Assembly (NCBI RefSeq): GCF_021134715.1
Contig: NC_060022.1
Coordinates: forward strand, 2,671,001-2,735,000
Length of the DNA: 64,000 nt
Reading direction: 5' to 3'
DNA from: Daphnia pulex
Lineage: Eukaryota; Arthropoda; Branchiopoda; Diplostraca; Daphniidae
Part shown: positions 33,951-63,999 of the stretch, piece by piece
Numbering within the stretch: position 1 is the stretch's first letter
Layout: the number at the start of each line of letters is the position of its first letter
Notes under the pieces: model-generated
What the model was told of the DNA's origin: nothing
The model's database searches: none
Seen by the model: only the letters and a program-made list of their open reading frames with translations
Position numbers and translations under genes: made by a program

Positions 33951-36900
33951 ATGGCGTCCCTTGTGGCTACCGTCGTTGACGGATACAACACCATATGGGA
34001 TCTAAGAGGTACGTAGTCTAAACTTGTTTCTTTCTCTTTCAAACGGGTCGGTTGTTGATAACTACGTTTTTCTCGGTTGGGTTTCCAACAGACAGGAGAG
34101 TGGAGAACTGGCTCTTTATGGGCTCGCCGCTGTCCACCTTGGCTATTTGCTTGAGTTACGTCATGCTCGTCAAAGTGTGGGGACCGGCCTACATGAAAAA
34201 CCGACCAGCCTTCCAGTTTCGCCGCACTTTGGTCATTTACAACGCGATTCAGGTCATCTTCAGCACGTGGCTCTTTTACGAGGTAAAACAAACTGTTCCA
34301 TGACCGAGATAAAATTTAAAGTCAAAGTTTAAACTACAAATTAAAAAAAAAAAAATCAATTAATCTGCATCGCATATGGAAACGAGGGAAATCGCTGATA
34401 AAGCCATAGAAAAAAATGCTTGGCAGGGGGGGGGGGGAAGAAAGAGCCAAATGGATGTGTTGTCAGTTGAGAAACAGAGAAAAGAAACCTAAACCGTCCT
34501 GCCACCATATTGTCCACACCGGTATCCATCCTTACATATCCTTAAATCCTTTATCGAATCGGACCAGTCCGTTTCACACCTGATTCTTTCACCTTAAACA
34601 AAATCATCGAATAATCCTTTACTTTCTTTCGACGAAATTTCAAGATCTTGGATTTTTTTTTAAAGTTGTCATGTCAATTTTTTTTGGTTAGTGCCAGAGA
34701 AAATTGTGATTTTTTTTAAATTGGGAAAATGTGATGGTGGGGAAAGTGGATCCGCTGTTCATTTTCAGAAACAAAATTTGCGTCACATTAAAATAACTGT
34801 TCGGTAGTCACGCACAACACGCTTTCTTTCTCGCCTTCACATCTTTTTACGTTTTATTCGAATTATCTCCTCGCATTTTCTCCCCTTTTTCTGTTTTTCT
34901 TCTTTCTCGTTATTAATGTCACATTTTTTATTCGAGTTCTTTCTTTTTTGATGGGGAAGAACCTGGGGTGGGGGAGGAATTTCTTACATAAACTAGGCGA
35001 TATTGATTAGCATACCTTAGTATTTGAACTGGACGTGCATCGAATGTTGATGGAAGGAATGACAAGAAATGTGTGGACAGTGGGACAACGGTGTGGATCA
35101 AGTCTGGTGGGACGACGAGAGAGTAAAAAAATGGCCCCAAGTTAATTTTTGGGTTTGTCAATGAAACGATGAATCTGTAATACTATATCTGTATGCGTCT
35201 CGTGACAGTCGCTGATGGGTGGATGGCTCTTCCACTACAGTTTAAAGTGTCAGCCCGTTGACTATAGTGACGATCCTATTGCCATTCGGGTGAGTTCAGT
35301 CTTTTGTGTCTCCCGTATCGATTATCTCTCTCCATCTCTTACTTTTTGCTGCCTTTTTTTTTATCTTTTTCATCAAAGTAATTGATACTCTCTCCACTCT
35401 CTTGGAATTTGTCAATTTTTGCCCTCCACAATCAAACACGAAATCGCGTCAGCCACATGAACAACAAGAATGTCAACAATTACGAATTTCAAACTTAAAA
35501 TCTCCATTTTTTTCGCGTTCGTCGAATGAAAGTTTAATCAAAAATGAGTATTCATATTTGTATTCCATTATTATTAATGTTAACAAAAGAAAAGAAACAG
35601 GGTCGGCGATTTTTTTTTCAACATTCTCATCTCATCTGCTTTTTTTATTATTATTTATTACTCGGGTGTATTTATTCGTTGCTTTTGGTATCTCTATTCT
35701 GACCCCAAAGATTTTTCTTGTTTTGCCTCTACTATTTTTCTATTGGCAATTCTGGATGACAAGCTTTCTTATCCATTTTTAGATCATCATTATTAACACT
35801 TACACCACACCACCAAAAGTAATTTTAAAAGTAGATTGCGGTTCTCGTGAGAACCCGGGGAAAATATTCAACCAAACCAAAATTAATTAAAAACAAAAAT
35901 AATGATAATGAAAAGGAATGATTTCGCAGGAAAGTCCGCGGCGGAGGATGTGGTGTGGGGGTCTGTTCCAACCTGATAGAACTTGCAGAAATTATATCTC
36001 TATCAAATCTGTCCTGATTTTTCTCTTTACACTTATTACATTCCCTGGTTCCTACCTCAGTTCTCCCTGTAATCCTCCCTCTCCTTGTATCCCTATCCTT
36101 TAAGACCACAAAGGTGGGTGGTAGGTTGGTTACTTTTTTTGCGCCATACACGCATTTCCGTATCACGGAAAGTTCAGTTTGGCGGTCGAATAATAAAAAG
36201 GAAGACAAATTTCGTCTCGTGTTGGATCGTAACAGGCCATAAAAAGCAAAAGTCCACCTTTTGTTATAATAATCCGATTGTTATTTTTTATTTTGTGATT
36301 CTTCGCAGTATGGTAGAGGGGGCTGGTTCCACGGATATAGCTTTGTGTGTCAACCAGTTGACTATTCCCTTGACGATATGGCCGTCAGGGTGAGTTTTGA
36401 ATTTTTTCAATATCCCTCCCTCTCCCATTCCCTCCACAATCTCCGTCCATCCATTCAGACAAAGACGAAAAATATTTGTATTTTTTTTTTCTTGAATTAA
36501 AACTATTACCCCGCAATTCTCTTTTTAGCCCCACTACTAAAAAAAAAATTAAATTAAACAAGCGTCGGTTTGGTCAAGTGAACAACGCCCCTTTGCCGGC
36601 CTCCGCTCTGGAAGCATTCCGCCCTCTCTTTAATTTCTTTACTTTGGACAATATTTTGGTTTTTTGTATAATAATCTCGAAACTCGTGGGATTGGTCGTG
36701 TTTGTGCATGGAGGTGAAGCATTTAAACCAATCTCGCTTACATTATTCCAAACTAATCGATAGAAATGTTGTTAACAACTAATCCCAATTCAAACATTTC
36801 AGCAGCTAGGATGTTTTTATTTTTGTATGGGATTCTATTTGGTATCAAGTAATGTAGTTTTGAGTATTTTACTTATCGTCAAACACACAAAACACACCAC

Positions 36901-39900
36901 ACTCCTTTTCCTTATTGTTGATCCCTCTATTCTCTTTTCTATCTTTCCTCATCCGGAACGAGCTGATTGACCCCGGATGGCATCTTGTCTCATTCTCTCT
37001 ACATTGTCTGCAGGGACACATTAGGCTATTAAGGGAGGGGCACCCAGATGGACGGGGCAGAAGAACGGTGTAATTTTTTTTTCTTGACCGTCCGCTTTCG
37101 TTTGGTGGACAATCGGTCATTTTGTTGTCAAGATGTCACTGGGTTCAACAGCTCTCGGCTGCGGACAAGAGATTAAGTCGATCACCAAAAATCTATTTCT
37201 TCTTTGGACACAGTTCTTTATCCGCACAAGTCTTAAAATAGAAAGGAAAGATTGACCCCTTTCCTTCACTCTTCCTAATTCTTTTGGGATTCTAGACTAA
37301 AATAAATCTTCCTTTTAATTCTTTACTTTGCCTTGTCAACCTGTTTTCACCCTACTATTCCTTCTCTAAATTCTGTCTCACTATTGAATGCTGCCAAGTG
37401 ATCAAAATTTAAATCCCTTTTAAATCTTCACTCCGGAAGTCGAAAAAGTGCACAGCTTCCATAACAAACAAACAAAAATGGGCAGAACAAAAGAACAACG
37501 GGTCCACTCTCCATTTCCAAATTTTTTGTCTTTTAAAAAAGAGTGCTCTCGCGAAAAATCAATAAGAGAAGAAAGTTTATCACTTTTTGTCGATATTTAT
37601 CGAGAAAGAAATGAAAAGTATCATTTTTTGCGTGCTTTTTTGAGGGGGGATTTAATTTTAATTTATTAAAAAGAAGAAAAAAATTTAAAGACAATTCGTT
37701 AAACAAGAAAAGAAATAATTTTTGCCAATTGAAATGATGGAATATTATGGTGACGGTGCGCTCGCGCTTTTATTTTATTTCCAGATAGCCATGTCTGGCT
37801 GGGCAAATAGTTACAGTTACCGATGCCAACCGGTGGATTATACTGATAATCCGCTGGCTATTCGGGTGAGTTGTGTGCATGAAAAATTATCCTTCGACAT
37901 ACTTTCTCAATAGCCCATGTCCATGTTTTTCACCACATTTCCGCACTCCTTTTCCTCGTCATCCTACTCTACACAAACACAAACACACAATTTCTTCCCT
38001 GCCTCTCTCAATATCTCACACTGTTCTAATAATTCCACTTTCTTTGTCGGCTTTTCATCCAAGACTTATTTAATTTTTTTTTCTGGTATTCCTTCCAGTA
38101 TTCCTTACAATATTTTTTTTTTTTTGTAATTCTAACTTTCCCACTTGACTATACACTTGACTAACACAATGCTGTAGTTAGTGCAATTTTTTAACTAGAA
38201 AACGACAAAGTTAAAAAAGAAAGACCGACTCTCGTATTGACCATAGAAAACTGTTCATTCATTAAAAAAAGGAAGACAAAAATAAATCGCGACCAAATCG
38301 ACCGACAGATCAAAACACGAATCCCCAATTTGCGAATTTTTTTTTTTACGTTTTTTTATTTGCACATTGTCCTTGCTTCACAGTAATTTCAAACAGTTGA
38401 CGCACTTTACGTTGTCTCTTCCCGACACGCCTCCAACAATGTCCTCCGTTCTCAGAAATCCCAAATTTATGTTCAAAAATTTCTTCACCCATTCCTCTTG
38501 TCATCTCATAGTTGATCTTAAGGAATCTTGCAATGACCCATTGATTGATTAAGACACTACTGATGGCTGTCTTAATCAATTAAGATTTTAAAAAATCAAT
38601 CACGACTTTAATTGCACGACTCTTTTTTGATTGATTGTGAGATTGTGTGTTCAATTCCACGTGTTATTTATTTCCTCCTCATTTTTTAAAACTTCCAAAT
38701 TCAAAAACTAGACATACTTTAACTGAACGTGGTGATCTAATTGTTATTATCTCTTTGCGCTCGCCAAATTCGTCGATACAGATGGTCTACGCCTGTTGGT
38801 GGTATTATTTCTCCAAGTTCACCGAGTTCTTCGACACAGTAAACATTCTAGAAATTCTTTTCCTTAACGAATCGGATCACATTTTCTGAATTTTATTTTG
38901 TGTTCTAATTGTGTCGTTTCTTTTTTTTCCAGATTTTCTTCGTCTTGCGCAAGAAAGATGAGCACGTTTCTCTGTTGCACGTCGTCCACCACGGCATCAT
39001 GCCAATGAGCGTCTGGTTCGGAGTTCGTTTCACGCCTGGCGGTCACTCAACCTTTTTCGGTTTGCTCAACACCTTCGTCCACATCGTCATGTACTTTTAC
39101 TACATGGTGGCCGCCATGGGACCTCAATACCAGAAATTCATTTGGTGGAAAAAATACCTCACCGCATTCCAGATGGTGAGGTCCTATCTATCTCTCTCTC
39201 TCCCCTTGTTATTCGGGAAAAAATGGCTTCGATTCAGACCACACCCTTTGCCCGCCGCTTGCTGCAAATTGATGTTTTTTTACCGGGAAATCGATGTGGT
39301 CTACTGGCACTGCTGTTCGATCGGTCGTCTGTCTTAGTTTGGTGCTTAGTTTTCCTTGACGTCTCATGAATATGTGCGCTCGAGATCGATGGACTCCTTT
39401 CGCTCGAGGGAGTGGCTGTTGAAGGCGGAAGTCCGACCGTGACGACATGACGATCTCAATGCAACACATACATTAATAATTATTTTGTTGTTGTGTGTCC
39501 CTTCCCATGTTGTGATTAGGTTCAATTCATCGCCATTGTGGTGCACGCTTTCCAACTGCTCTTCATCGATTGCAACTACCCCAAGGCCTTTGTCTGGTGG
39601 ATCGGCTGTCACGGCGTCCTCTTCTTCTGCCTCTTCTCCGATTTTTACAAGCGCAGCTACAAGAACGCCAAGTCTCGCGTAAGTGACCTCGCCTTCTCCC
39701 ATTTTCTTTTGATTCAGCCACCCGGCATTGTTGTCTGCCTTTTTCCAAAGGAGAAAAAATAAAATAAAAAGAATTCGATAATGAATAGCCGACGATAGTA
39801 GATTGTTGGAGCCGTTTTCTTTTTAATTGGGCAAATCCACGCTAAGGCGAGATTTTAGAGCCTATGGGAAAATTCTAACCCCCTTTCTTTTTTTTTTAAA

Positions 39901-40366
39901 CAAGAAAGAGACATGGATTACTTTCAGCCCCACGTGTCGCTCCGCCCTCTTTTCTCTCATCCCTCCTACCTTGTCCTATCCGTCCCTTGTTTGATTTCAA
40001 TTCGAAAACTACACCCAAAACCCGTTTTAATTTCATTTGCCGATTTTGAAAGGCTTTTGATTGGCGGTGCGCTTTAACTGTCCTCATTGTTGTCGAAACT
40101 CGTTGACTTAATTTTCTTTTGTTTTTATTTTGTTGAATGGAACGCAGATTGCCGCTGCTACCAATGGATTGAAAGCCAATGGGCACAGTAACGGATACTC
40201 TAATGGCAGCACCAGCAATGGGCACAGCAACGGCCACACCACTAACGGGCATGCCAACGGCCACAGCAACGGTCACGCCAACGGCAAAACCCACGAAAAG
40301 AACGGACACTCCAACGGCCACTCGAACGGCTACACCAATGGAGCTCTTCATTCCAAGAATGAATAG
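33951..40366 (+). CDS. Very-long-chain fatty acid elongase (ELOVL family) with alternative exons
   Basis: Constant exons are 33951-34008, 34092-34282, 38782-38838, 38933-39175, 39520-39678 and 40148-40366. One of three interchangeable 81-base exons sits between the second and third. Every version gives 335 aa. The enzyme is an ER membrane 3-ketoacyl-CoA synthase that condenses malonyl-CoA with long acyl-CoA. All family motifs are present: KFTEFFDT (122-129), histidine box HVVHH (145-149), NTFVHIVMYFYY (175-186) and TAFQMVQF (206-213). The spacing and predicted helices fit the seven-helix ELOVL fold, closest in feel to the ELOVL1/ELOVL7 branch. The tail after about residue 264 is unusual: a repetitive Asn-Gly-His series rather than the common dilysine ER-retrieval signal. 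The ATG at 33951 lies in an exon preceded by a plausible acceptor ending at 33912. Confidence 0.93.
35209..35289 (+). other. Elongase alternative exon, version a
   Basis: 81 bases, phase 0 on both sides, acceptor GTGACAG and donor GTGAGT. It encodes 27 residues including GGWLFHYSLKCQPVDYSDD and ends AIR. It follows the helix ending WLFYE and precedes MVYACWWYYFSKF. Confidence 0.88.
36309..36389 (+). other. Elongase alternative exon, version b
   Basis: 81 bases, phase 0 on both sides, acceptor TTCGCAG and donor GTGAGT. It encodes 27 residues including GGWFHGYSFVCQPVDYSLDD and ends AVR. Length, phase, donor and core sequence match versions a and c. Confidence 0.88.
37785..37865 (+). other. Elongase alternative exon, version c
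   Basis: 81 bases, phase 0 on both sides, acceptor TTTCCAG and donor GTGAGT. It encodes 27 residues including SGWANSYSYRCQPVDYTDN and ends AIR. Confidence 0.88.
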
Positions 40367-44634: not shown

Positions 44635-45205
44635 GAGTGATTGTAAAATGTGGTGGAATTGTGGGTGGAGGTGGGACAATAAAGCAATTCCTTTTAAAGT
44701 TTTTTGTTTGCTGTGTCTTATAACTTAGTAAATAATGTTTAGCACCTGACTTGTATATTTCTTACAACTTAAGTTTTACATAAGTTATAGGCAAGCAACT
44801 GATTATCTCCAAGACTCTTTAAATAAACTACTGTGAGGAACTAAACACTATCTGCAACTCCTTTGTTACGCCAATTTAAAAACAGAGCTGTTAGCGTAAA
44901 ATTTTTTTAGCAAACACTATACAGTACGTCTCATTCGTAACTTGCCCTGTAAATGAAGTTCATCCCAACACTAGAAAATGTCGGAATGCAGAGCAACTAG
45001 AGCAATAGTCACGTCTAACATGCGAAATGGGAAAGATCGAACAAAAATCAGAATACGTCGCAAAGTCAAAAGGCTTTTAGGTGGCAAGAGAAGTCTTACA
45101 ATATGATTACCCAGTATGAAAAATTTATTTTCTCATTAAAGATCAACAACAATTCCCAGTGACTAGTAAATATTAAGATATGACCGAAAAGTCTGAACAT
45201 AATTA

Positions 45206-46110
45206 TTAAAATTGAAAATTCGACTCTAATTTAGGAACGTCCCTGTAGTAAGTTGGAGAAGCGTAGGTTTTGGTGTAATATTCAGGTGCCTCAGTAGTGT
45301 AGTTACTCGGGGCGGAGTAAGAGTTCGCAGCTTCGGTGTAGTAGCTGAGTGTAGCGTAGGCTGTGATAATTGGAGCTTCAGTGAAGAATTTCGGTTCAAC
45401 GATATACGAAGAGACGGTGGTTGTGTAGGAAGTTGAGGCAATGTAATACTTGGCCGCGTCAGTTTTGATTATGTAGCTCATGGCAGAGTTGTATTTGGGC
45501 GCTTCTGTGTAGTATTCGGCCGTTCTTGTGGTGTAATAAGTTGGAACCGTACTTGCAAACATCGGTGTAGTAAGCTAGCGCAGCACACGTAGAGGTTTAG
45601 TACTTCGGTGCCTTGATGGTGTAGTACTTCGGTGCCTTGATGGTGTAGCTCGGGGCAGCATAAGTTTTAGCGTATAATCTGGAGCCTTGGTGGTGTAGTA
45701 GTTGGACGGCTCGGTGTAGTACGCTAGGGCTGCATACGTGTAGAACTCCGGTGACTTGGTGGTTCGGTGTAGAACTCAGGATCTTTGGTGATGTAGCTCG
45801 GGGCAGCATAAGTTGTGGTGCAACTCTGGAGCTTTGGTGGTGTACTAGTTGGGCGACTCGGTGTAGTAACTGATGGTTGCGTATTATGTTGTGTAGTAAG
45901 ACGGCGGCGTTTTGCTTAGATATCCGACATTCCCAGGAGACGTCGGTACACCAGTGGACGACCCAGCAATCAACAATACAACACCCAACAGCAGCATGAC
46001 GCCATAGTTTACTAGACAAAAATTATTTTAACATTTATATGCAATAATAAATAACAATTTTAAAAAAATAGAGTTGATTCACAGCTTCAAAAAAAGAATA
46101 TTTACCCATG
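45206..46110 (-). pseudogene. Decayed YYT-repeat secreted protein gene, copy A
   Basis: The first exon is only ATGG (46110-46107) before a GTAAAT donor. The second starts at 46011 and gives MVNYGVMLLLGVVLLIAGSS, a clear signal peptide, then PPSYYTT and a stop, with a second stop 15 codons on. After further frame breaks, 45562-45206 is again open for 118 codons of Tyr/Thr/Ala/Pro-rich repeats (YYTEAPKYNS, YYTEAANSYSAPSNYTTEAP). Proteins of this type are secreted repeat proteins, plausibly cuticle or gut-lining components; that role is inferred from composition. The stops make this copy non-functional unless introns remove them. Confidence 0.6.
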
Positions 46111-46129
46111 TTTGCGAAATTCGGAAGCT

Positions 46130-46719
46130 TAGTTTGAGGTGTAATATTCGGTTGCGTTAGTGGTGTAGCAACTCGGGGCAGAGTACTGCTTTCGGAGCTT
46201 CGGTGTAGTAGGTCGTGGTTGCCTAAGTAGTGGTGTAATACTCGGACGCCTTGGTGGTGTAGTACTTGGGAGCAGCGCAGGTAGTAGTGTAGTGAACTGG
46301 AGCCTCGGTTTAGTATTACAGTTCAACGTAATATTCCAGTGCCTTCGTGGTGTAGTACTCCGGTGTAACGTAGGTTGTAGTGCAGTACTTGGACGCCTCT
46401 GTGGTGTGACAAGTTAGATCCTGGGTGTAGTAGCTGGGAACAGAATAGCACATGGCAGCATTGTTATAGTTAGCTGGAACATCGTAGGTTGAAAATTACT
46501 CAGGAGCCTTGGTGGTGTAGTACTTGGGGTCTTCGGTATAGCAAGTAGGCGTTGACGTGTCTGTTCAGTAAGTCGGCAGCGTGGTGTAGTATTCTTTCGC
46601 TGCTGAGTTTCGGTATCAACCATATCCAGGAGACATCGGTACACCCGTAGTAGACCCAACCATCAACGATCCATCACCCAAGAGCACGGCGACGTAGTTA
46701 ACTTCACAATAAACAAATT
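46130..46719 (-). pseudogene. Decayed YYT-repeat gene, copy B
   Basis: Sequence from about 46701 downward matches the second exon of the other copies (TTAACTACGTCGCCGTGCTC), including the signal-peptide segment, but the frame breaks within 40 codons. Fragments of the repeat (EYYT, YYTT, AP) appear in all three frames down to 46130. I found no first exon. Confidence 0.5.
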
Positions 46720-46749
46720 GAAAAATAAATTTTCGAATATAACTGTATC

Positions 46750-47358
46750 AACAACTAAAAACAAGATAGAATTCAGGAGCACCTTCTGTGTAGTAAGTCG
46801 GGGCTGCGTAATCCTTGGCAGTCTCAGTCGTGATTGTGTGGATCGGGCAGAGCAGTAATTTGGCACTTCGGTGTAGTATTCCACCGTTTTGGTGGAGTGA
46901 TAAGCCGGAGCCTCGGTTGATTAACTGGGAACAGAGTAGCACTTGGGAGCCTCGGTGTAGTGGTACGGGTCAGCATACGTCGGTGCCTTGCTGGTGTAGT
47001 AACTCGGGGCAGAGCAATACTTCGGGGCAACGGGTAAAATACTTCGCCAGCGAAAGTCTTGGTATAACACTTCAGTATTTTAGTGGTGTAGTACTTAGGG
47101 GGCCTCGGTGTAGTAACTAGTCGTTGCGCCAGTTGTCGTGTAGTTAGGCGGCGGCGTTGCGGTTTGATATCCGCAATACCAAGGAGTCATCGGTTCACCG
47201 GTGGAGTGGTCAACCCAGCCATCAACGATACAACCCCAACGACGATATAGTTAACTAAACAGACAAATTTAAAATTAATACAACTGTATAACTGGAATAT
47301 TAACAAAAAAAGCATGATTGAAACAAAAATCAATGTCAAAAACAGAATATTTACCCAT
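46750..47358 (-). pseudogene. Decayed YYT-repeat gene, copy C
   Basis: The first exon ATGG (47358-47355) has an intact GTAAAT donor, and the second exon starts at 47254 with VNYIVVGVVSLMAGLTT. A frameshift shortly after the signal peptide leads to TGA. The other frame then continues with the family pattern (PPPNYTTTGATTSYYTEAP) until a further break. Confidence 0.55.
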
Positions 47359-47401
47359 TATTGCGAATTGGTTACACGATGCGGAATGCAGCTGGTGACA
47401 G

Positions 47402-47832
47402 ATGGGGCACTGCAGTTGTTACCGATTCCGGTGCCTTAGTGGTTTATTACTTGGGAGCCTCGGTTCAGTACTCCAGCTCTTCGGTGATGTAGCTCGGGGC
47501 AGAGTTATACTTCGGGGCATCGGTGTAGTAGCTCGAAGCATCATAAGTTTGGGTGTAATACTCTGGAGCCCTGGTGGTGCAGTAACCGGTTGTTGCGTAT
47601 GTTGCTGTTGTGTAGTAAGGCGGCGGCGTTTCGGTTTGGTATCCGTACCCAAAAGACATTGATACACTAGTGGTCGACCCAGCCATCAACGATACAACAT
47701 CCGACAGCAGCACGACATTATAGTTGACTAAACAATTAATAATATTAATATTCAATAACCGGCATATTCACAAATAGAACAAAGGATTGATAAACACACA
47801 ACATAATATTACCCTAACTGCGAACTAGTTAA
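47402..47832 (-). pseudogene. YYT-repeat gene, copy D, start codon lost
   Basis: This is the best-preserved body. From about 47729 it reads VNYNVVLLSDVVSLMAGS, then PPPYYTTATYATTGY, APEYYTQTYDASSYY and APKYNSAPSYITEELEY, and ends at a TGA. The first exon expected near 47815 has TTAGG where the other copies have ATGGG, so there is no start codon. A different upstream start cannot be excluded. Confidence 0.5.
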
Positions 47833-48070
47833 AAGATGAACAATCCAGTTGGTGATAGGGTTGGTGAAGGAAACATAGGTACACCAGTGGTCGACCCAGC
47901 CATCAACGATACAACACCCGACAGCAGCACGACGCCACAGTTAAATAGACAAATTCAAACATTAATATTCAATAGCAACTTAATCAACTCATTAATAGTC
48001 AATAGTAGACTTAATAATACAAAACTATGTAGAGAAACGGAATGTTTACCAATTGTTGCGAGCTGGTAAT
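47833..48070 (-). pseudogene. Truncated YYT-repeat gene, copy E
   Basis: The first exon near 48055 reads CAATTGG|GTAAAC-like sequence, with ATG changed to ATT. The second exon (from about 47944) keeps the signal-peptide segment but then runs straight into the first-exon region of copy D, so the repeat-encoding part has been deleted. It is the only copy with a recognisable TATA promoter upstream. Confidence 0.5.
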
Positions 48071-48130
48071 CCGATGAAGAAGCCAGTTGGCACAGGTAGT
48101 TCACAGCAGTTGTTGCCGTGTCGATGATGC

Positions 48131-48172
48131 TCACCCAACTAATGTCTGTAGCTTTTTCTCTCTCCTTTTATA
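48131..48172 (-). promoter_or_regulatory. TATA/initiator promoter at the head of the YYT cluster
   Basis: On the minus strand TATAAAAG (48172-48165) is followed about 25-30 bases later by CAGACATTAGT. It is positioned to drive copy E and would give a short 5' UTR. Confidence 0.5.
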
Positions 48173-48240
48173 CGAATTTTTTTCTCACCCTCACCTCCTA
48201 AGCCTTGCGGGTATTGTACCTGCTTGGTGATAATGAAACA

Positions 48241-48660
48241 CGTCCCTTTTTCACCCAACCTCTACCACTGCATGACACGTTCTACCTGGCCTTTCCTTTG
48301 GCAGGTTGACGTCGCTGGGGATGGGTCTACATTAAACAAAATCAAAATGAATACTAAATGGTTATAAAACATCCCGTTGTCACCCAACCTCTACACCACT
48401 GCATGACACGTTTTACCTGGCCTTTCCTTTGCAGGTTGACGTCGCTGGGGATGGGTCTACAACAAACAAAATCAAAATGAATACCAAATGGTAATAACAC
48501 ATCCCGTTGTCACCCAACCTCTACACAACTGCATCACACATTTTACGTAATGATCTCCGTGACCTTCGAACTGGAAGGACATGCAACTGGCCTTTCCTTC
48601 TGCCGGTTTTACGTTGCTGGGGATGGGTCTACAACAACCAATATCAAAATGGAGAAATGG
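48241..48660. repeat. Tandem repeat, three units of about 130 bp
   Basis: The phrase CACCCAACCTCTAC begins at 48252, 48381 and 48511. Each time it is followed by a CTGCAT(G/C)ACAC segment, TGGCCTTTCCTT and GCTGGGGATGGGTCTACA. The first two units are nearly identical; the third carries an extra segment of about 30 bp. Confidence 0.88.
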
Positions 48661-51600
48661 TTATGGCTTAAAACTCACTTTGACACATTATACTAATTGA
48701 CATTTGAGTCATTTGACCCATTTCTTCGGTGAATGAATACATCTTCCATTTCGAACCATTTGAAGGACAGTCGGATTTTTTGAAAATATTGCAACCTTAT
48801 ATCTAAGTTTCAAACACATGATAAATCCACATTCATTTCATGATGTGAGATCTAGGGTTTCAATATCCAAACATATGCTTTAAATTTGTAATATTTTTAC
48901 CTCAAGATCATCTTCATCAGATTAATAATGGATATAATTTATCCAAAGAAAGAACAATCCACTGACGCGAGAATAAAAACTGGGGGAGGGAGTTTGTTGT
49001 TTCGGGTTGTTAAGCAGAATACGACGACAATAGAATCTAAACCATCCCTGTGAAAGCGATAACACAAAATATAAACGTGATCAACATAACTTCAAGGATT
49101 GAAAAACTAAATAAATAATCATTTAGATGAGATCTATTTACAAGGGAAGAGGAGACATTTTGAAATCTGCAACCCACATGGACGAGGTTAACTAAGGTTT
49201 GGGGGATTCCGACAGGATGGGCCACAGAGGATTACCTGATTAAGAAATCGATCGTGCCCCCAGCACTTTTGAAAGAATAACACGTGTGAGCATGAGTCGG
49301 TGCTAGTTTTTGCTGCCATTTCTGTCGAATTTCGCAAAACGCGCGTTCCATTTCTGTCATGGGGAGTTAGCAAATTGTGGATTCAACATTGATTTCTTTT
49401 TTCATAAGTGACGGAGGCGTCTTTTCGGTTTTTCTCTTTGGACCTCTTTAATTTGAGGTGCTAATTCATCAATGTGAATCTAGTTGGGCGCCTTTTTCGA
49501 TCATTGGATACACCGGCATTTGATGCAGGAGGAGGTGCGAGATATCATTGGACATACAGAGATAAGAGGGCCATCTATAAACAACAAATTTAATGAATTC
49601 AAAACACTTCAGAAAATATAATTGCAAAATCATCTTGAGTATGAGTGACGATTGGCCAGGATCCAGCTCTTAATCCGCTTCTCCTGGAGAATGTGGTCAC
49701 GTAGGGTAACTTGTGCCAGACAGAAGAGAAGCATCCTAGCTCAAATAGGACGAATGGAAATTGGAATGGTGGGCAATTGCAACAACATAGGATGAACAGT
49801 CTGCAATATGACAGCATGGTTGCAAAAAAAAAAACGTCCGTTTAAACTCACTGCAACCTGGAATGGAGAACTTGTGAAACAAGCCAACAAGTACCATTTT
49901 TGGTGTCTCTGTCCTCTGATGCCTAGTTTTAGCGAAAGTGGATAGCTCGTCGGGTCCTGGTTGACATATGTCTTGTGTCGGCCGTGCATACACAATTTGA
50001 AAATGGCGTTGGCTGGTAAAAGAGATTGAGATTTGGTGGGGGAGAGGGGGTTCACCTCCTTGGTAACGAATCCACCAGAATCATTAATCGCAAGTCAACA
50101 TATGCGCACTCCACAATGGCAGTCTTGAAGTGTATGGAATAAGTTTCGTTAACAGTTGGTGTACCAGTAATAGATAGTTCTTAGCTGACTCTTCTTTGGA
50201 TTTGGATTCTACATACTTGTAACGTCAAATCGCCATCTGCAACGCATGATTTGTTTACCGTAACTTTTTCAGTTACCATTTTGTTCCCTTTGTTTTGATT
50301 CATAAACAGATCAGGCTTGTCATCTTCTCTCTCAACTTAGATGACCGTCTTAAGGGCTTTTCTAGCAACTCACTCATTCAAATCTTGAGAGGATTCGATG
50401 TTAGCCTACTAAAACATAGCAAATTATGGGCGTCTTTTATGACAAAACTAAATTTCTGTATGCACCTTTATGCTTTTTTGTCGACTGGAAGGAACCTGTT
50501 TCAATATTTCTTGCCTCAAGCTGCATTTTCTCATGACAAAGGGCCTTTTCAAATTTTGTCTTGACGAATTGCATGCAGCCATTTAAGTTGACATGGCTGC
50601 TCAAGTAGTACCACATCTTACAGTCCTCCACGCCAAGTTTTTCAACCACTGCCAATTTCTTCCCGGCTGCCACTTTAACGGTGTCTTATATAACGACCCA
50701 CTATATATGCAGCCCATGTCGGTCATAGTACAAAGATTTCAGAATCTGAAAAGAAAAAAAACAAACAATTATGTTAAACTACTCTTACACTTGGAGAATA
50801 CATACAATCAAGAGTTGCCAAAATCTGCTCGTTATGCAGGAACTGTAGGACGAGAAAGTCGAGAAGATTAGTTTTTATTTTTAAACCTGGAACCCGTAGG
50901 CGGAAACTGGTCCGTATGTTGACGATCCCGAAACTTTTTACAATAACGTCAACATTCTTCTCACTGGCTAGCATTTTGTCTTCAACAGAAAGGCATATTT
51001 CATTGCTTGATGTGGAAGTGTACAAATTTTTTTAACTTCCATGTAGATTGGAAAAAGCAATTCGGGCTACATTTTTCTGGAAAAGAAGTGTACAGGATCA
51101 ACCAGCAGGTACTTTTCCATCACTGGATTCTTCAAAAGCACAAGACAACACCAACTATGACTTAAAAAGCTTAGACTAGTATTTGAGCTAATGTGATGAT
51201 GGCCCAATAATAAAGACACAGAATAAAATTTTCGGCTTCTTGCACTTTTTCACCATGGAGAAGTTGAATGACTGAATGTCCAGTGCAGGTGAAACAATGC
51301 AAATCTCATTTTGCATAAATGTGATGTGATAATGCTGGATTGACACCAACGTTTCCTTGACATGAATGATTCTCTTAAACCACGTGCAGGGATGCGGGAC
51401 AACCACTGATAAGTATTGGACAATCGAATCGAGAAACAAAGAAGACTTTGCGTAAACGGACTTCATTACCAAATGCTCGCCACAATCTAACCGTAAGCGT
51501 AATAAGACAAACAACAACATAACAATAATATATCAAACAATAACCTACCTTTCACTAATTAGAAGCAGTGAATCTGTGGTTTTTACTTTTTACTTTTGCA

Positions 51601-51840: not shown

Positions 51841-54800
51841 ATGGAGTTAACTGTCGAAAATTTAGAGAAAGCCGTTAGTCATTTTTATCAAAATTCGGCC
51901 ACACAGTCTCAACTTAACTTGTGGTTGACTGCTGCCCAGTCATCGGCTCAAGCATGGATATTCGGATGGCAACTTCTTGATCAGTCAAAAGTAAAATAAT
52001 AAAAAATATAAGTTAAGCTTGTGATTGTTTTTTCTAAATTTTATATGTTACATATCTAATAGCCGGTGGAGGTGCAGTACTTTGGAGCTAGCTCATTGCA
52101 GATAAAAATCTCTAGATTTTGGCAAGAAATTCCAGCTGACAATTATGCAGCTTTCAGAGAAAAACTAATCGATGCTGTTATGTTTTATGCAAATGGACCC
52201 AAAATTGTACTAACTAGATTATGCCTTGCAGTAAGTGAAACAAAGAATCTCAAAGTATTTTACAGAGTTTTACTTATGTTGGTTCTTGAAAACAAGCTGT
52301 CATCCATGATTTTGCACTCTATTCCTGATCAATGGACTAGTCCTTTGAGCGATTTCATATCAATATTGCAACGTGCCAGTGGAGGTAGCCAACTAAAACC
52401 ACAACATGTAAATCTATTGTTAGAGATATTGACTGTTCTTCCGGAAGAGGTTTGATTTTTAATTTATTTTCTAAACGTATTTATTTAATATTAATCTATT
52501 TGTTGAATCAGTTTCAAAGTATGCGATTAGCACATGAAAGAAAAATTGCTATCAGAGGAGAACTACTTAAAGCAGTTAAAGATGGTATAAATGTGTTAAA
52601 ACTTAAAGATAAAACAACAGTTTAAGTTGCTTAGCTTTTCCCCTCACAGTACTGCCAATTTTACGTGAAGTTATTTGCCGTGGAATTCATCGTGAAACAC
52701 CGGTTTCTTCAGATGACGAATCAACTTCTCAATCCGGCATTAAGTGTTTTTCGTCGTGGATTCAACATGGAGTTGGAGTCGGCTTAGACGAAAGCCTCCA
52801 TTTGGTAGAACCTTTATTGGCAGCGGCCCGTAATCCCAATATGACAGAAACATCACTGGAAGCATTAACTCATCTACTGAATCACCCTGAAACTCACCGT
52901 TATCCAAATTTGCTCATGGACATGCTGAACCAGCTGCTCTCGCTTCAAGACCATATTCAGCTGTTGAGGTATTTTGCATTACGTCTAACATTTATATCTG
53001 CATTACAAAAAAAAATGTCTGTGAATTTCTTAGACGTGAAGGAGACTTGGAGGGTGCAGCTCACATCTATGCTACGCTTGCGGCTTTTGGCGAGAGCCAC
53101 TCTCGTCTTCTGTTGGATGCAGTTCTAGAAGACGGATTAAAGAAGGAGAATGTTCTTCAACTGATACAAATCATGTTGGAGAGCACCGGAACTCCTGGTC
53201 GATATCCTCTAGACGAGAACTGCAGTCACTTGGCTTTTAGTTTCTGGTAATTGCCCCTTTTTTTTTAATTATTATTCGTTGATTGCCTGATAAAATTATT
53301 ATTTTTTTTTTCCATCAGGTACATTCTTCAAGATGATATTTGTACTTCACCTGTTGACAAACAAAAAATCTATCAGTCATTATTTGGTCCCGCGTACTTG
53401 ACTCTGGTCGATATTTTGATGACCAAATCAATGATAGCAATTGATCAGTCGGATTGGACCCCTGACGATAAGGAAACTTTTCGGTGTTATCGACAGGTAT
53501 TCGATTCAAAAAGTTCGTCCATTAAAATTTTATCATCTCAATACATGTTGGTAAATGCCAGGATATTGCTGATACGCTAGCTTATTGCTACAAGTTTTTG
53601 AGATCCGCAATGATGGAACGTTTGGCCTCTCACCTGGCCTCAACCGTGTCTCAATGTAATCAGAATCCCAATGAGTGGCCTCCATTGGAGGCATGTCTGC
53701 ATGCTTTAAAAGTAAGATCCTTATTATTTTACACCAGGCCAGTGAACATAACATACCTACAAATGTCACTGAACTAACAGGCGGTCGCTGAGAATGTTGA
53801 AGCGGAAGCAGATCTGCTCGTACCTCAGATACTGAGTTTGTTCGGCAGTATTCCATACGGTTCCGGTCATCGCTACGTCGTTAACACGGCCCTTGAGACC
53901 CTAGGTGCTTACGCTGAATGGTTGAGTGCACACCCCACCTACTTGGGCCACGTACTACCTATTCTTCTTTTTGGGCTTAATAACCCCGACGCTGCCCCGG
54001 CAGCAACTTTAGCCCTTAAGGTAATTTGCGCATTTGAATGTTACTTTTGATTTCTCTGAGGAACGTAGTGTTATCGAATATTTCTCTGTAGGACATTACG
54101 CGAGATTGTCAAATTGGTATTCGGCCGTATGCCGAAGCATTATTGCAAGGTGCTGAACAAGCTCTGCGCCTCGATGATCTCAAAGATAGTGAAAAGGTAG
54201 TATATGCAATTTTGACATTTTTCTATAACTTATGAAACATACGTGATGTGACTGACTTGTTATTTTTCTTTAGATTCGTTTGATGTATATTTTAGGGAAA
54301 GTGTTATCGATTCTTCCTCTGGATATGATAGTGGCCAGTTTGAATCGTGTAGTAGGTCCGTGTGTGGAGGAATTACGAGCTCTATGCACTACCCGTGAAC
54401 CGGACGCCACTACAAAAATTGTTCTTATTACTCGGCTTAAAATGTATTAATTACTTACAATGTTACTTACTTTTTTTTAATTATTATTTGTACGTTTTTC
54501 CTTTTGTCTATTTCAGGATTGCCACTTTATGCACTACTCTTGATTTGAGAATCTCTAGTGGAGATGATTCTGAAGCTGACGAATCCACTACTCGACAGGT
54601 TTTAGCAATCCAGCAACAGCCCGTCCTATTGATTGCACAACAGCTGCTACCTTTTTTGAAAGGTGTTGTTGATCACTGGGGTTCCGATGAACAGATTTCA
54701 GAGGTATAAACTGCTTAAGCCGACTATTAGTAATAGTAAAGCTCACGATCTAATACTTTATTTTTAAAAATTACTTATTTTAATTTTCAGTCCATTTGCT

Positions 54801-55780
54801 TGGTTGTCAAACATACCGTCTCGACGTTAATGGAAGAATCATTATCTTTTTTGCCAGAATTGGCAGCTGTGATAGTCCAATGTCACCGGTTATCACCGCA
54901 AGCAGCTACATTGGACGTGGCCAAAATGATCATTTTGATTTTTAGCCAGACCTCGAACGACGCTCAGCAGCTTATTAGTGCCTTTCTCTCGGAGATCATA
55001 GGAACTACGTTGCAAGTTTGCGGAGTGGACTGCAACACATTGACACTTGATGGAGTTCCATCGATTGATGTTGCCCGCCTCGCTGATAACAATGAGGTCT
55101 TGGGTAGTTTTCTCGGTCTACTAACTCAAATCATTAGGAAGAATCCCAAACTATTGATTGGTTCGTCTTACCCTTTGCCATCACTTTTTTATTGTGGTAT
55201 CGCCGGTTTGACGAGACCAGAATCACCAGTCCTCAAAGCATCTACTCAATTTTTGGTCCACTTCATCACACAAAGCAGAGAGAATCCCGAGTTGGTATCT
55301 GTCGTGCAAAATCAAGGCCTACTACTGGTTACTCAACTTTTAAGCTGCATAGGTAAGTAAAATAAATATTTCTTTGGTGTTTGGATCATTCTAACATGTC
55401 GTACATTTTACTCCAGGAGGGGAATCTCCTCGAGCTCTTGTGGAGCACACGGCCGATGTTATTTTGGCCCTTAACAAGAAATACTTCGACAGTCTTTGTC
55501 GATGGATGAGTGCATCGCTTGGTCGTGAACGTTTTCCATCGGCCCTTGTCAACCAAATTCAAAAGGAAAATTTTTGCCGGTCTATCCTTAAGTAGGCATA
55601 TATAAGATTTCTGCTAACTTTTAGCGTTCACTTGTGCATTAATTAACATGTTTGTTATCCTGCCCCAGGGAAAAATCTAACAAGAGAAGACTGCAAGACA
55701 TTGTAAGAGAGTTCTCGCTACAATGCCGAGGACTTGATGGTACTGAGTACTCGGAACAGACAAATCGATTACTTCCTTGA
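51841..55780 (+). CDS. Ipo13: Importin-13 (nuclear transport receptor)
   Basis: Fifteen exons (51841-51990, 52063-52230, 52297-52449, 52512-52584, 52650-52968, 53034-53246, 53319-53496, 53562-53711, 53781-54020, 54092-54196, 54274-54443, 54517-54703, 54791-55352, 55417-55591, 55669-55780) join in frame to 984 aa, the usual size of importin-13. The importin-beta N-terminal region starts TVENLEKAVSHFYQNS and continues EVQYFGASSLQIKISRFW, a strongly conserved Ran-binding stretch; the rest is HEAT-repeat helices, ending CRGLDGTEYS. The protein shuttles between nucleus and cytoplasm, importing cargoes such as UBC9 and Mago-Y14 and exporting eIF1A (known from the family). The 66-base second intron (52231-52296) is in frame and lacks stops; removing it restores family alignment (RLCLA joined to LSSMILHSIPDQW). 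Confidence 0.95.
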
Positions 55781-62936: not shown

Positions 62937-63489
62937 ATGGCCGCAGTGCAGCAGAACGGACGCCAAACACACAGTTCCTACTCCATTCGATCTCTTTTGG
63001 GCCTAACCACTTTATTGGTGGTTTTGCTTGCCATTCTTCCGTATTATCCAACATCGGCCATGTCTGCTTTATCTAGCGGTCATCACTCCTTGTCAAAACG
63101 CTCTTTCTTCGATATCAATTGCAAGGGGCTATACGACAAAAGCATTTTTGCTCGTCTCGACCGCATTTGCCAGGATTGCTACAGTCTCTATCGCGAACCC
63201 GAGCTTCACACACTGTGCAGGTAAATTAGTTTTTGTTTTTTCTCGCCGTTTAATTTTGTCCTTAATTGAACTTGCAACATTTATCGAACAAAGATTCAAC
63301 ACACATTCATTTGTTACGACTGTAAGATTATTAACTATAACGCAAGTGTGTTGCAACTCTGTTATTAGGAAGAATTGTTTCACCACCAACTATTTCAAGG
63401 GCTGCTTAGATGCCTTGCTCATCAACGATGAAAAAGACATTCAAAGAGTGATGAAGGATATTTCAATCATTCACCAGATTCCAATTTAA
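62937..63489 (+). CDS. CHH-family neuropeptide precursor, ITP-L-like (non-amidated) splice form
   Basis: Shared exon 62937-63220 joins to 63369-63489 to give 134 aa. The hydrophobic segment at 19-37 (LLGLTTLLVVLLAIL) is the signal sequence. A short linker ends in the dibasic SLSKR (51-55), after which the mature peptide starts SFFDINCKGLYDKS. The six cysteines have CHH spacing (mature positions 7, 23, 26, 39, 43, 52). The alternative exon supplies the part after C39 (KNCFTTNYFKGCLDALL) and ends IHQIPI with no Gly, so the C-terminus cannot be amidated. In insects the equivalent ITP-L form is expressed outside neurosecretory cells and may modulate the amidated form; that function is carried over from the family. 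Confidence 0.9.
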
Positions 63490-63999
63490 AAGAGGGCATA
63501 CTGTCCAGGTATAATTAGCCATCCTTCAGCAGCTGGTTTGCCAGTCCATCTTTGCTTTTCGGCATATGTTTAATAACCGGCAAATTATTCGTGGCATCCG
63601 TTTTAGCTTACTCCGCTTTAATATCAACAACTCTTTTTCAAGGCCCAACAAGACTGGTGCCGTATTAATAAGTTTCTATGTGGCTTAACTAACTCGGTAA
63701 CAACTAAGGTATTAGCTGAACTAACTGTCAGATTTAAAAACTGGCTGGTGATTTGCGCATTTGTTTTAACCCACTTTTTAAAAGTGTTAACAATTGGATG
63801 GTGATTGTTTCTGTGTTTCTCTCCGCTCTTCTAGCGCATTCAAATTCTTCGTGCAGTAAAATTAATCGTAGTCGTGTTTTAATGTATATCCAGGTCGGAA
63901 TGTTTTACAACTCCTTTCTTCAAGGCTTGCCTCAAAGTCTTGCTTATGGAGGACCAGGATCCAGATTACTCCGAAATGATCGACAAAATTGGCCGCTAA
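62937..63999 (+). CDS. CHH-family neuropeptide precursor, ion transport peptide (amidated) splice form
   Basis: The same first coding exon (62937-63220) joins instead to 63894-63999, skipping 63369-63489, to give 129 aa. The mature peptide runs from S56 for 72 residues to Ile, followed by Gly-Arg and the stop. Removal of Arg and use of Gly gives an amidated C-terminus (EMIDKI-amide), as in type I CHH/ITP hormones. The exon provides SECFTTPFFKACLKVLLMED with C43 and C52. CHH/ITP hormones control haemolymph glucose, ion and water balance and moulting in crustaceans and insects (family knowledge). The stop codon lies one base before the window ends, so the 3' UTR is outside. Confidence 0.92.

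Follow-up and report, generated by a model that had tools for sequence, protein, structure and literature searches.

How can a single fatty-acid elongase gene come to carry three versions of one exon, and what would it use them for? The question is raised by a gene in a stretch of 64,000 nucleotides of the Daphnia pulex genome (assembly GCF_021134715.1, contig NC_060022.1, positions 2,671,001 to 2,735,000 of the forward strand; hereafter the window, in which positions are counted from its first base). Within this gene, three tandem internal exons of equal length, here called A, B and C, lie between constant exons. In this work, we consider whether they are alternatives, what they encode, what could keep them apart and how old they are. 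The three exons very probably form a mutually exclusive cluster, and by alignment each encodes its own version of a lid at the closed end of the acyl tunnel of the enzyme.

Each of the three exons has 81 bases, is in phase 0 on both sides, lies between an AG acceptor and a GTGAGT donor, and has an open frame. The original prediction, made from the window sequence, had placed them in this form at 35209, 36309 and 37785, and the gene model bears out every part of that description, as it does the flanking junction sites (donor 34282 and acceptor 38782). The further claim that about half of the 27 residues differ agrees with the pairwise identities, which are 15/27 for A and B, 16/27 for A and C, and 12/27 for B and C. 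All three exons agree at 12 of the 27 positions, and at eight each has a different residue. The shared core that had been named is present, with a corrected spacing: in GW...YS..CQPVDY, three residues rather than two separate GW from YS. As a chance test, we compared all-against-all the window's 1,913 stop-to-stop frames with 22 residues or more and listed the frame pairs with E up to 0.01 that lie on the same strand within 15 kb. The exons match each other with E 2.5e-11 (A-C), 2.3e-8 (A-B) and 1.4e-7 (B-C). The A-C match is beaten by three listed pairs, which all belong to a DNA repeat (48.15-48.69 kb), and repeats at 45-48.7 kb account for nearly all the others. The likeness among exons A, B and C is not due to chance.

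Codon positions 1 and 2 of the exons are identical at 35/54 sites for A-B, 36/54 for A-C and 32/54 for B-C, against 11/27, 10/27 and 7/27 at position 3 (Fisher p, uncorrected, 0.034, 0.011 and 0.004, respectively). Since position 3 is nearly scrambled while positions 1 and 2 are kept, the exons appear to be old and under selection at the protein level, and we infer that all three copies are ancient and that purifying selection acts on each. The intron flanks of the exons have 28-40% ungapped identity, without clear homology, and the best direct match between the introns around them has only 15 bases (E 0.012).

The gene is predicted to encode an ELO (ELOVL1/7-like) fatty-acid elongase, which would condense malonyl-CoA with acyl-CoA. 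With any single one of the three exons the product has 335 residues; isoforms A, B and C score 215.6, 211.7 and 215.6 bits (cut-off 27) against the Pfam ELO profile (PF01151) over profile positions 2-239 of 242, and the HxxHH catalytic box of the family is present as HVVHH in exon 5. Alignment with residues 13-263 of human ELOVL7 (PDB 6y7f), which takes in the box and both of the cysteines considered here, gives 251.1, 247.7 and 257.0 bits for A, B and C. In isoform B, the exon aligns gaplessly to ELOVL7 residues 86-112 with its residue 14 on Cys99, and Cys231 is aligned to the IDCNYP cysteine encoded by constant exon 6; exons A and C have the same length, cysteine position and aligned range. 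The 6y7f structure represents one loop-2 sequence, whereas the Daphnia pulex gene has three.

The significance of these cysteines is given by work on ELOVL5, in which two conserved cysteines, C96 (loop 2) and C225 (loop 6), are joined by a disulphide that shuts the substrate tunnel at its endoplasmic reticulum (ER) end (PMC10449689, in the part available, as throughout for the sources cited here). We take the ELOVL5 pair C96/C225 and the ELOVL7 pair Cys99/Cys231 to be equivalent. From the alignment and this account of the disulphide, exons A, B and C are read as three versions of the ER-luminal loop 2, which lies opposite loop 6 and covers the closed, far end of the tunnel like a lid. The original prediction had correctly located the exons in the loop joining helices 2 and 3; it had also set that loop next to the histidine box, and here the alignment disagrees, putting it at the opposite, luminal end.

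Mutually exclusive use had been proposed from the exon structure, and several indirect indications now point to it. Each exon copy brings one tunnel-closing cysteine, so that skipping deletes it and double inclusion duplicates it, and the partner cysteine sits in constant exon 6 rather than in the swapped exon. In the genome searched (133.19 Mb, 13 contigs), there are at least nine ELO loci, as grouped by hand from 21 matches. The loop-2 segment is held by eight loci in the stretches read, once by seven of them and three times only by the window gene; at the ninth locus (C9), no counterpart was seen in the stretch read. The length of the segment in the other seven loci is nearly fixed, at 27 residues in five and 28 in both C2 copies. 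From this near-fixed length, the one cysteine per copy and the single-version paralogues, it is likely that exactly one of A, B and C enters each mature mRNA.

One point against exclusive use comes from the reading frame. Inclusion of two or three of the exons keeps the frame without stops, and so does skipping, which leaves room for optional cassettes included singly, doubly or not at all, with loops of 0, 27, 54 or 81 residues; the introns of 1019 and 1395 bases would permit any such joining. We nevertheless regard cassette use as quite unlikely, because it would break the length seen in the other loci and in the gapless ELOVL7 alignment, because it would remove or double the cysteine, and because two copies are seen in no intron-poor paralogue. 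It could also be supposed that a single exon is functional and that the other two are decaying duplicates, seldom spliced in. Of the three acceptors, that of exon A has the weakest pyrimidine tract (59%; 71% for B and 82% for C), yet the constant exons of the same gene span 47-88%. All three frames are open, the donors match the consensus at 8, 7 and 8 of 9 positions for A, B and C (the constant exons reach 4 to 7), and 12 residues are shared despite the scrambled third positions; an unconstrained copy of such age would be expected to have lost its likeness at codon positions 1 and 2. Decay of this kind is thus highly improbable, and mutually exclusive use is the reading that we carry forward.

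If the exons are used one at a time, something must keep them apart. The introns between them, of 1019 bases (A-B) and 1395 bases (B-C), rule out a steric clash across a short intron, a mechanism reported for 9% of human mutually exclusive clusters and not needed by every cluster; nor is enforcement by U2/U12 mismatch or by frame needed by every cluster (PMC5740500). A U2/U12 mismatch was rejected here, the introns being GT-AG throughout with GTGAGT donors at the three exons. Frame was rejected as well, 81 being a multiple of three, and the original prediction was right that frame could not enforce exclusion. Since spacing, splice-site class and frame are all unable to do so, trans factors or an unrecognised RNA structure would be the enforcer.

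Competing pairings between the introns had been suggested as such a structure. Whole-intron duplex folding, which is ill-suited to the purpose, gave values within or weaker than those of 12 shuffles each for four of the six intron pairs. In a local helix search, the strongest helix between intron 2 and the intron after A, B or C beats 100/100 shuffles in every case, and the other three intron pairs are unremarkable, their best helix being reached by 30, 23 and 24 of 100 shuffles. Docking-type scores were reached by 0/100 shuffles for intron 2 and by 1/100, 9/100 and 1/100 for the introns after A, B and C. The pairings of intron 2 thus beat shuffled sequence; however, they are equalled or bettered by 13, 24 and 31 of 150 other segments of the window. 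Intron 2 contains a 12-G run (Table 1) to which its pairings with the introns that follow A and B are mainly due, and when this run is masked, the pairing score is reached by 103, 21 and 7 of 150 other segments; the pairing with the intron after C stems from another G-rich stretch, 34965-34981. Competing pairings may or may not contribute to exclusion, and we claim no docking site.

The intron after exon C offers two leads (Table 1). One is a TGCATG, which we take to be an Rbfox-type motif. The other is a stem-loop in a region (38530-38660) that folds at -30 kcal/mol with z -3.24, none of 200 shuffles being as stable, although this element was picked after the intron comparison had been seen. 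Its arms, TTGATTGATT and AATCAATC, are repeated, with extra copies of the arm motif just 3', and the copies could pair in competing ways some 120-240 bases before the acceptor of exon 4.

The paralogous loci bear on the age of the cluster. In the C7 gene the segment stands alone as 81 bases flanked by AG and GT, and a separate 81-base exon unit is therefore probably the ancestral state. By eye, the C1 pair (L012, L013) keeps introns 1 and 2 and has the segment fused with downstream exons, and C10 (L014) and C2 (L015) keep intron 1 alone in the coding part read. The segment of the C1 pair, AWLFRYSLRCQPVDYSDDP, is A-like, and that of C10, WFNGYSFVCQPVDYS, is B-like; the C2 segment is nearest B (17/27, against 14/27 for A and 12/27 for C). 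Residues that match just one of exons A, B and C number 4, 0 and 1 for C1, 0, 5 and 2 for C10, and 1, 4 and 0 for C2; for human ELOVL7 they number 0, 2 and 2. In these respects, the intron-poor C1, C10 and C2 genes appear to behave like fossil spliced messages, each holding a single version.

At all four of L012, L013, L014 and L015, the downstream introns are absent and the first one or two are retained, a pattern as expected if spliced-RNA copies had replaced the 3' parts of the genes. The second C2 copy (L016, G000 C2:11971407-11972115) gives matches in two different frames, which overlap by a short stretch, and looks frameshifted; its sister L015, with an open frame, lies about 56 kb away. 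A profile search of the window and the paralogue stretches found no further copy of the segment; since the profile derives from the copies already known, the absence of extra matches is its sole informative outcome. When 300 bases of the joined exons 4-5 were searched in the genome, a search that scores only the best candidates, the C1 pair, one C2 copy and C10 alone were found besides the window gene. One scan each of bacterial/archaeal and viral contigs found no relatives of the constant region.

Trees of the 27-residue segment with seven rows group A with C1 (support 87/93) and B with C10 and C2 (81/88). The constant region yields a different tree, in which the main gene groups with C10 and C2 (99/98) and a grouping with C1 is rejected (p of the approximately unbiased test, p-AU, 0.009). 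The simplest reading, which we hold with moderate confidence, is that the A/B split predates the duplications that produced the paralogues and that these relatives later fixed one version each.

Taken together, we propose the following account. An 81-base exon encoding the whole loop between helices 2 and 3 would have been triplicated in tandem, long ago, within one elongase gene, and splicing would put one of the three copies into each mRNA, the exclusion arising from trans factors or from an RNA structure that is not yet recognised. Every isoform would retain the cysteine that bonds to loop 6, encoded by constant exon 6, and so keep the tunnel shut on the ER side; the loop 2-loop 6 bond is known in human elongases (PMC10449689), and its position here is given by alignment. 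The residues around the cysteine would be swapped, which would probably change acyl-chain choice, stability or assembly with the catalytic core left untouched. An altered acyl-chain choice is plausible because loop 2 holds the cysteine taken to shut the acyl tunnel. In its fullest form, which we put forward only tentatively, the account is that an exchangeable lid sets the chain length or unsaturation of the product by tissue, temperature or diet, and that the array predates paralogues that each fixed one lid.

Both the function and the age in this account have competitors. Exclusive splicing may be real without acyl-chain selection being its purpose; it may instead serve expression control, protein stability or partner choice, a possibility that we hold less likely than not. 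In four human elongases, one known from a crystal structure and three from homology models, loop 2 takes overlapping conformations and loop 6 differs, the region of loop 6 contributes to substrate preference, and a change beside loop 6 leads to misfolding and ER stress (PMC10449689). The overlap suggests that loop 2 may be mainly structural and weakens, without excluding, a role in specificity. What speaks for such a role is that the loop bears the cysteine taken to close the tunnel, and that two of the eight positions at which all three exons differ directly precede it. As to age, the likeness of A and B to different paralogues might be due to gene conversion or convergence, the array then being no older than the gene duplications. 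The segment trees have just 27 columns, with one inserted residue cut from C2, and the third codon positions carry no useful signal. A single clade of A, B and C comes at a cost of 10.9 log units; it is rejected with seven rows, though at the borderline (p-AU 0.0445), and not with nine (p-AU 0.0695), and forcing A and B alone together gives p-AU 0.0911 with seven rows. With nine rows, A joins C1, C7 and C6b together (70/92) and not C1 alone. C7 and C6b are long branches in that tree, and C10 and C2 are also long branches. The likeness of B to C10 and C2 could be partly a matter of retained ancestral residues, since human ELOVL7 shares GYSF with exon B. These points on the trees and the residues count against an early A/B split. 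On the other side, none of 150 parametric simulations under a single A-B-C origin reaches the observed likelihood loss (maximum 4.6), and conversion or convergence has to be set against the constant-region tree, where the main gene stands apart from C1. We therefore consider conversion or convergence rather unlikely, and an A/B split that predates the paralogues remains our preferred reading.

The features of the gene are collected in Table 1.

Table 1. Coding exons of the elongase gene and intronic elements in the window.
Feature	Position	Strand	Basis or remark
Coding exon 1	33951..34008	+	ATG at 33951; gene model
Constant exon 2 (helices 1 and 2 by homology)	34092..34282	+	donor GAG|gtaaaa; gene model
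Run of 12 G, intron 2	34426..34437	+	not above control segments
Alternative exon A, 27 residues, SLMGGWLFHYSLKCQPVDYSDDPIAIR	35209..35289	+	translation, gene model
Alternative exon B, 27 residues, YGRGGWFHGYSFVCQPVDYSLDDMAVR	36309..36389	+	translation, gene model
Alternative exon C, 27 residues, IAMSGWANSYSYRCQPVDYTDNPLAIR	37785..37865	+	translation, gene model
TGCATG, base 11 of the intron after exon C	37876..37881	+	lead; 17 copies in the window on this strand
Stem-loop with 16-pair stem, intron after exon C	38541..38583	+	lead; picked after the intron comparison
Constant exon 4 (MVYACWWYYFSKFTEFFDT; helix 3 by homology)	38782..38838	+	gene model
Constant exon 5, HVVHH histidine box	38933..39175	+	gene model
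Constant exon 6, partner cysteine (IDCNYP), counterpart of ELOVL7 Cys231	39520..39678	+	alignment
Constant last coding exon, NGHSNG-rich tail and stop	40148..40366	+	stop placed by count, 1008 coding bases

Beyond the elongase gene, the window holds a dense repeat field on both strands at 45200-48700; its minus strand reads as YYTTEAPKYYTT-type repeats resembling a mucin or cuticle-like protein, and the repeated DNA unit at 48.15-48.69 kb lies inside it. Further 3', on the plus strand, there is an Importin-13-like gene at 52063-55357 (Xpo1 E 1.4e-7, Importin_rep_3 E 1.1e-15) and a match to the crustacean CHH/MIH/GIH neurohormone family at 63007-63486 (E 3.4e-7). A frame at 63883-63996, also on the plus strand and about 400 bases past this match, holds a similar 24-residue stretch. 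The pair (63007-63996), at the window edge, is to be read as two hormone genes in tandem or else as alternative last exons.

Judging by the NGH-rich tail, the gene probably belongs to the same subfamily as the arthropod elongases of the AAEL008004/CG31522/CG31523 type, an assignment that we assume here. An AAEL008004 elongase is named among the Apis cerana genes that answer cold by alternative splicing (PMC11677483), and such an elongase gene in Apis mellifera has two transcript isoforms (PMC10258952); neither source, in the part available, states the type of event. The exon arrangement may thus reach into insects, and it may be annotated already. We found no report of mutually exclusive exons in any elongase in the openly licensed literature, as judged from titles and abstract openings among the matches listed. 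Elongase or ELOVL terms are absent from the main text, as far as available, of PMC7318467, PMC3228551, PMC3303723, PMC3923563, PMC7954323, PMC9741552 and PMC5740500, and the available parts of PMC3929608, PMC4938635, PMC8484720 and PMC8080000 contain nothing on this elongase exon. Mutually exclusive tandem exons are well known, and such a cluster in an elongase appears to be new.

If one-at-a-time use is true, one gene could probably yield three enzymes. Elongase specificity has been linked both to the duplication of genes and to loop 6 together with helices 6-7 (PMC10449689); three natural swaps of loop 2 on a constant catalytic body would be a ready-made experiment on loop 2 and chain selection. 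Among genes with mutually exclusive splicing, ion channels and other membrane proteins are over-represented (PMC9741552), and if exclusivity holds, an enzyme of lipid metabolism would join this class, along with paralogues that each bear one version.

The arrangement resembles the Dscam clusters, Mhc, 14-3-3zeta (PMC6071210) and PKM (PMC7954323) in having adjacent homologous internal exons of the same length, phase and splice sites that are old, conserved duplicates. It differs from them in that the host is a fatty-acid elongase, that exclusion is here only predicted, and that its intron pairings, read as docking and selector elements, do not beat the window controls. A second parallel concerns the paralogues. 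Although the elongase relatives have also lost introns 3' of the segment, and their link to exons A and B is drawn from short sequences, the single-version relatives found beside a multi-version gene after duplication recall those of the FYN/SRC family and of CACNA1F/CACNA1S (PMC9741552).

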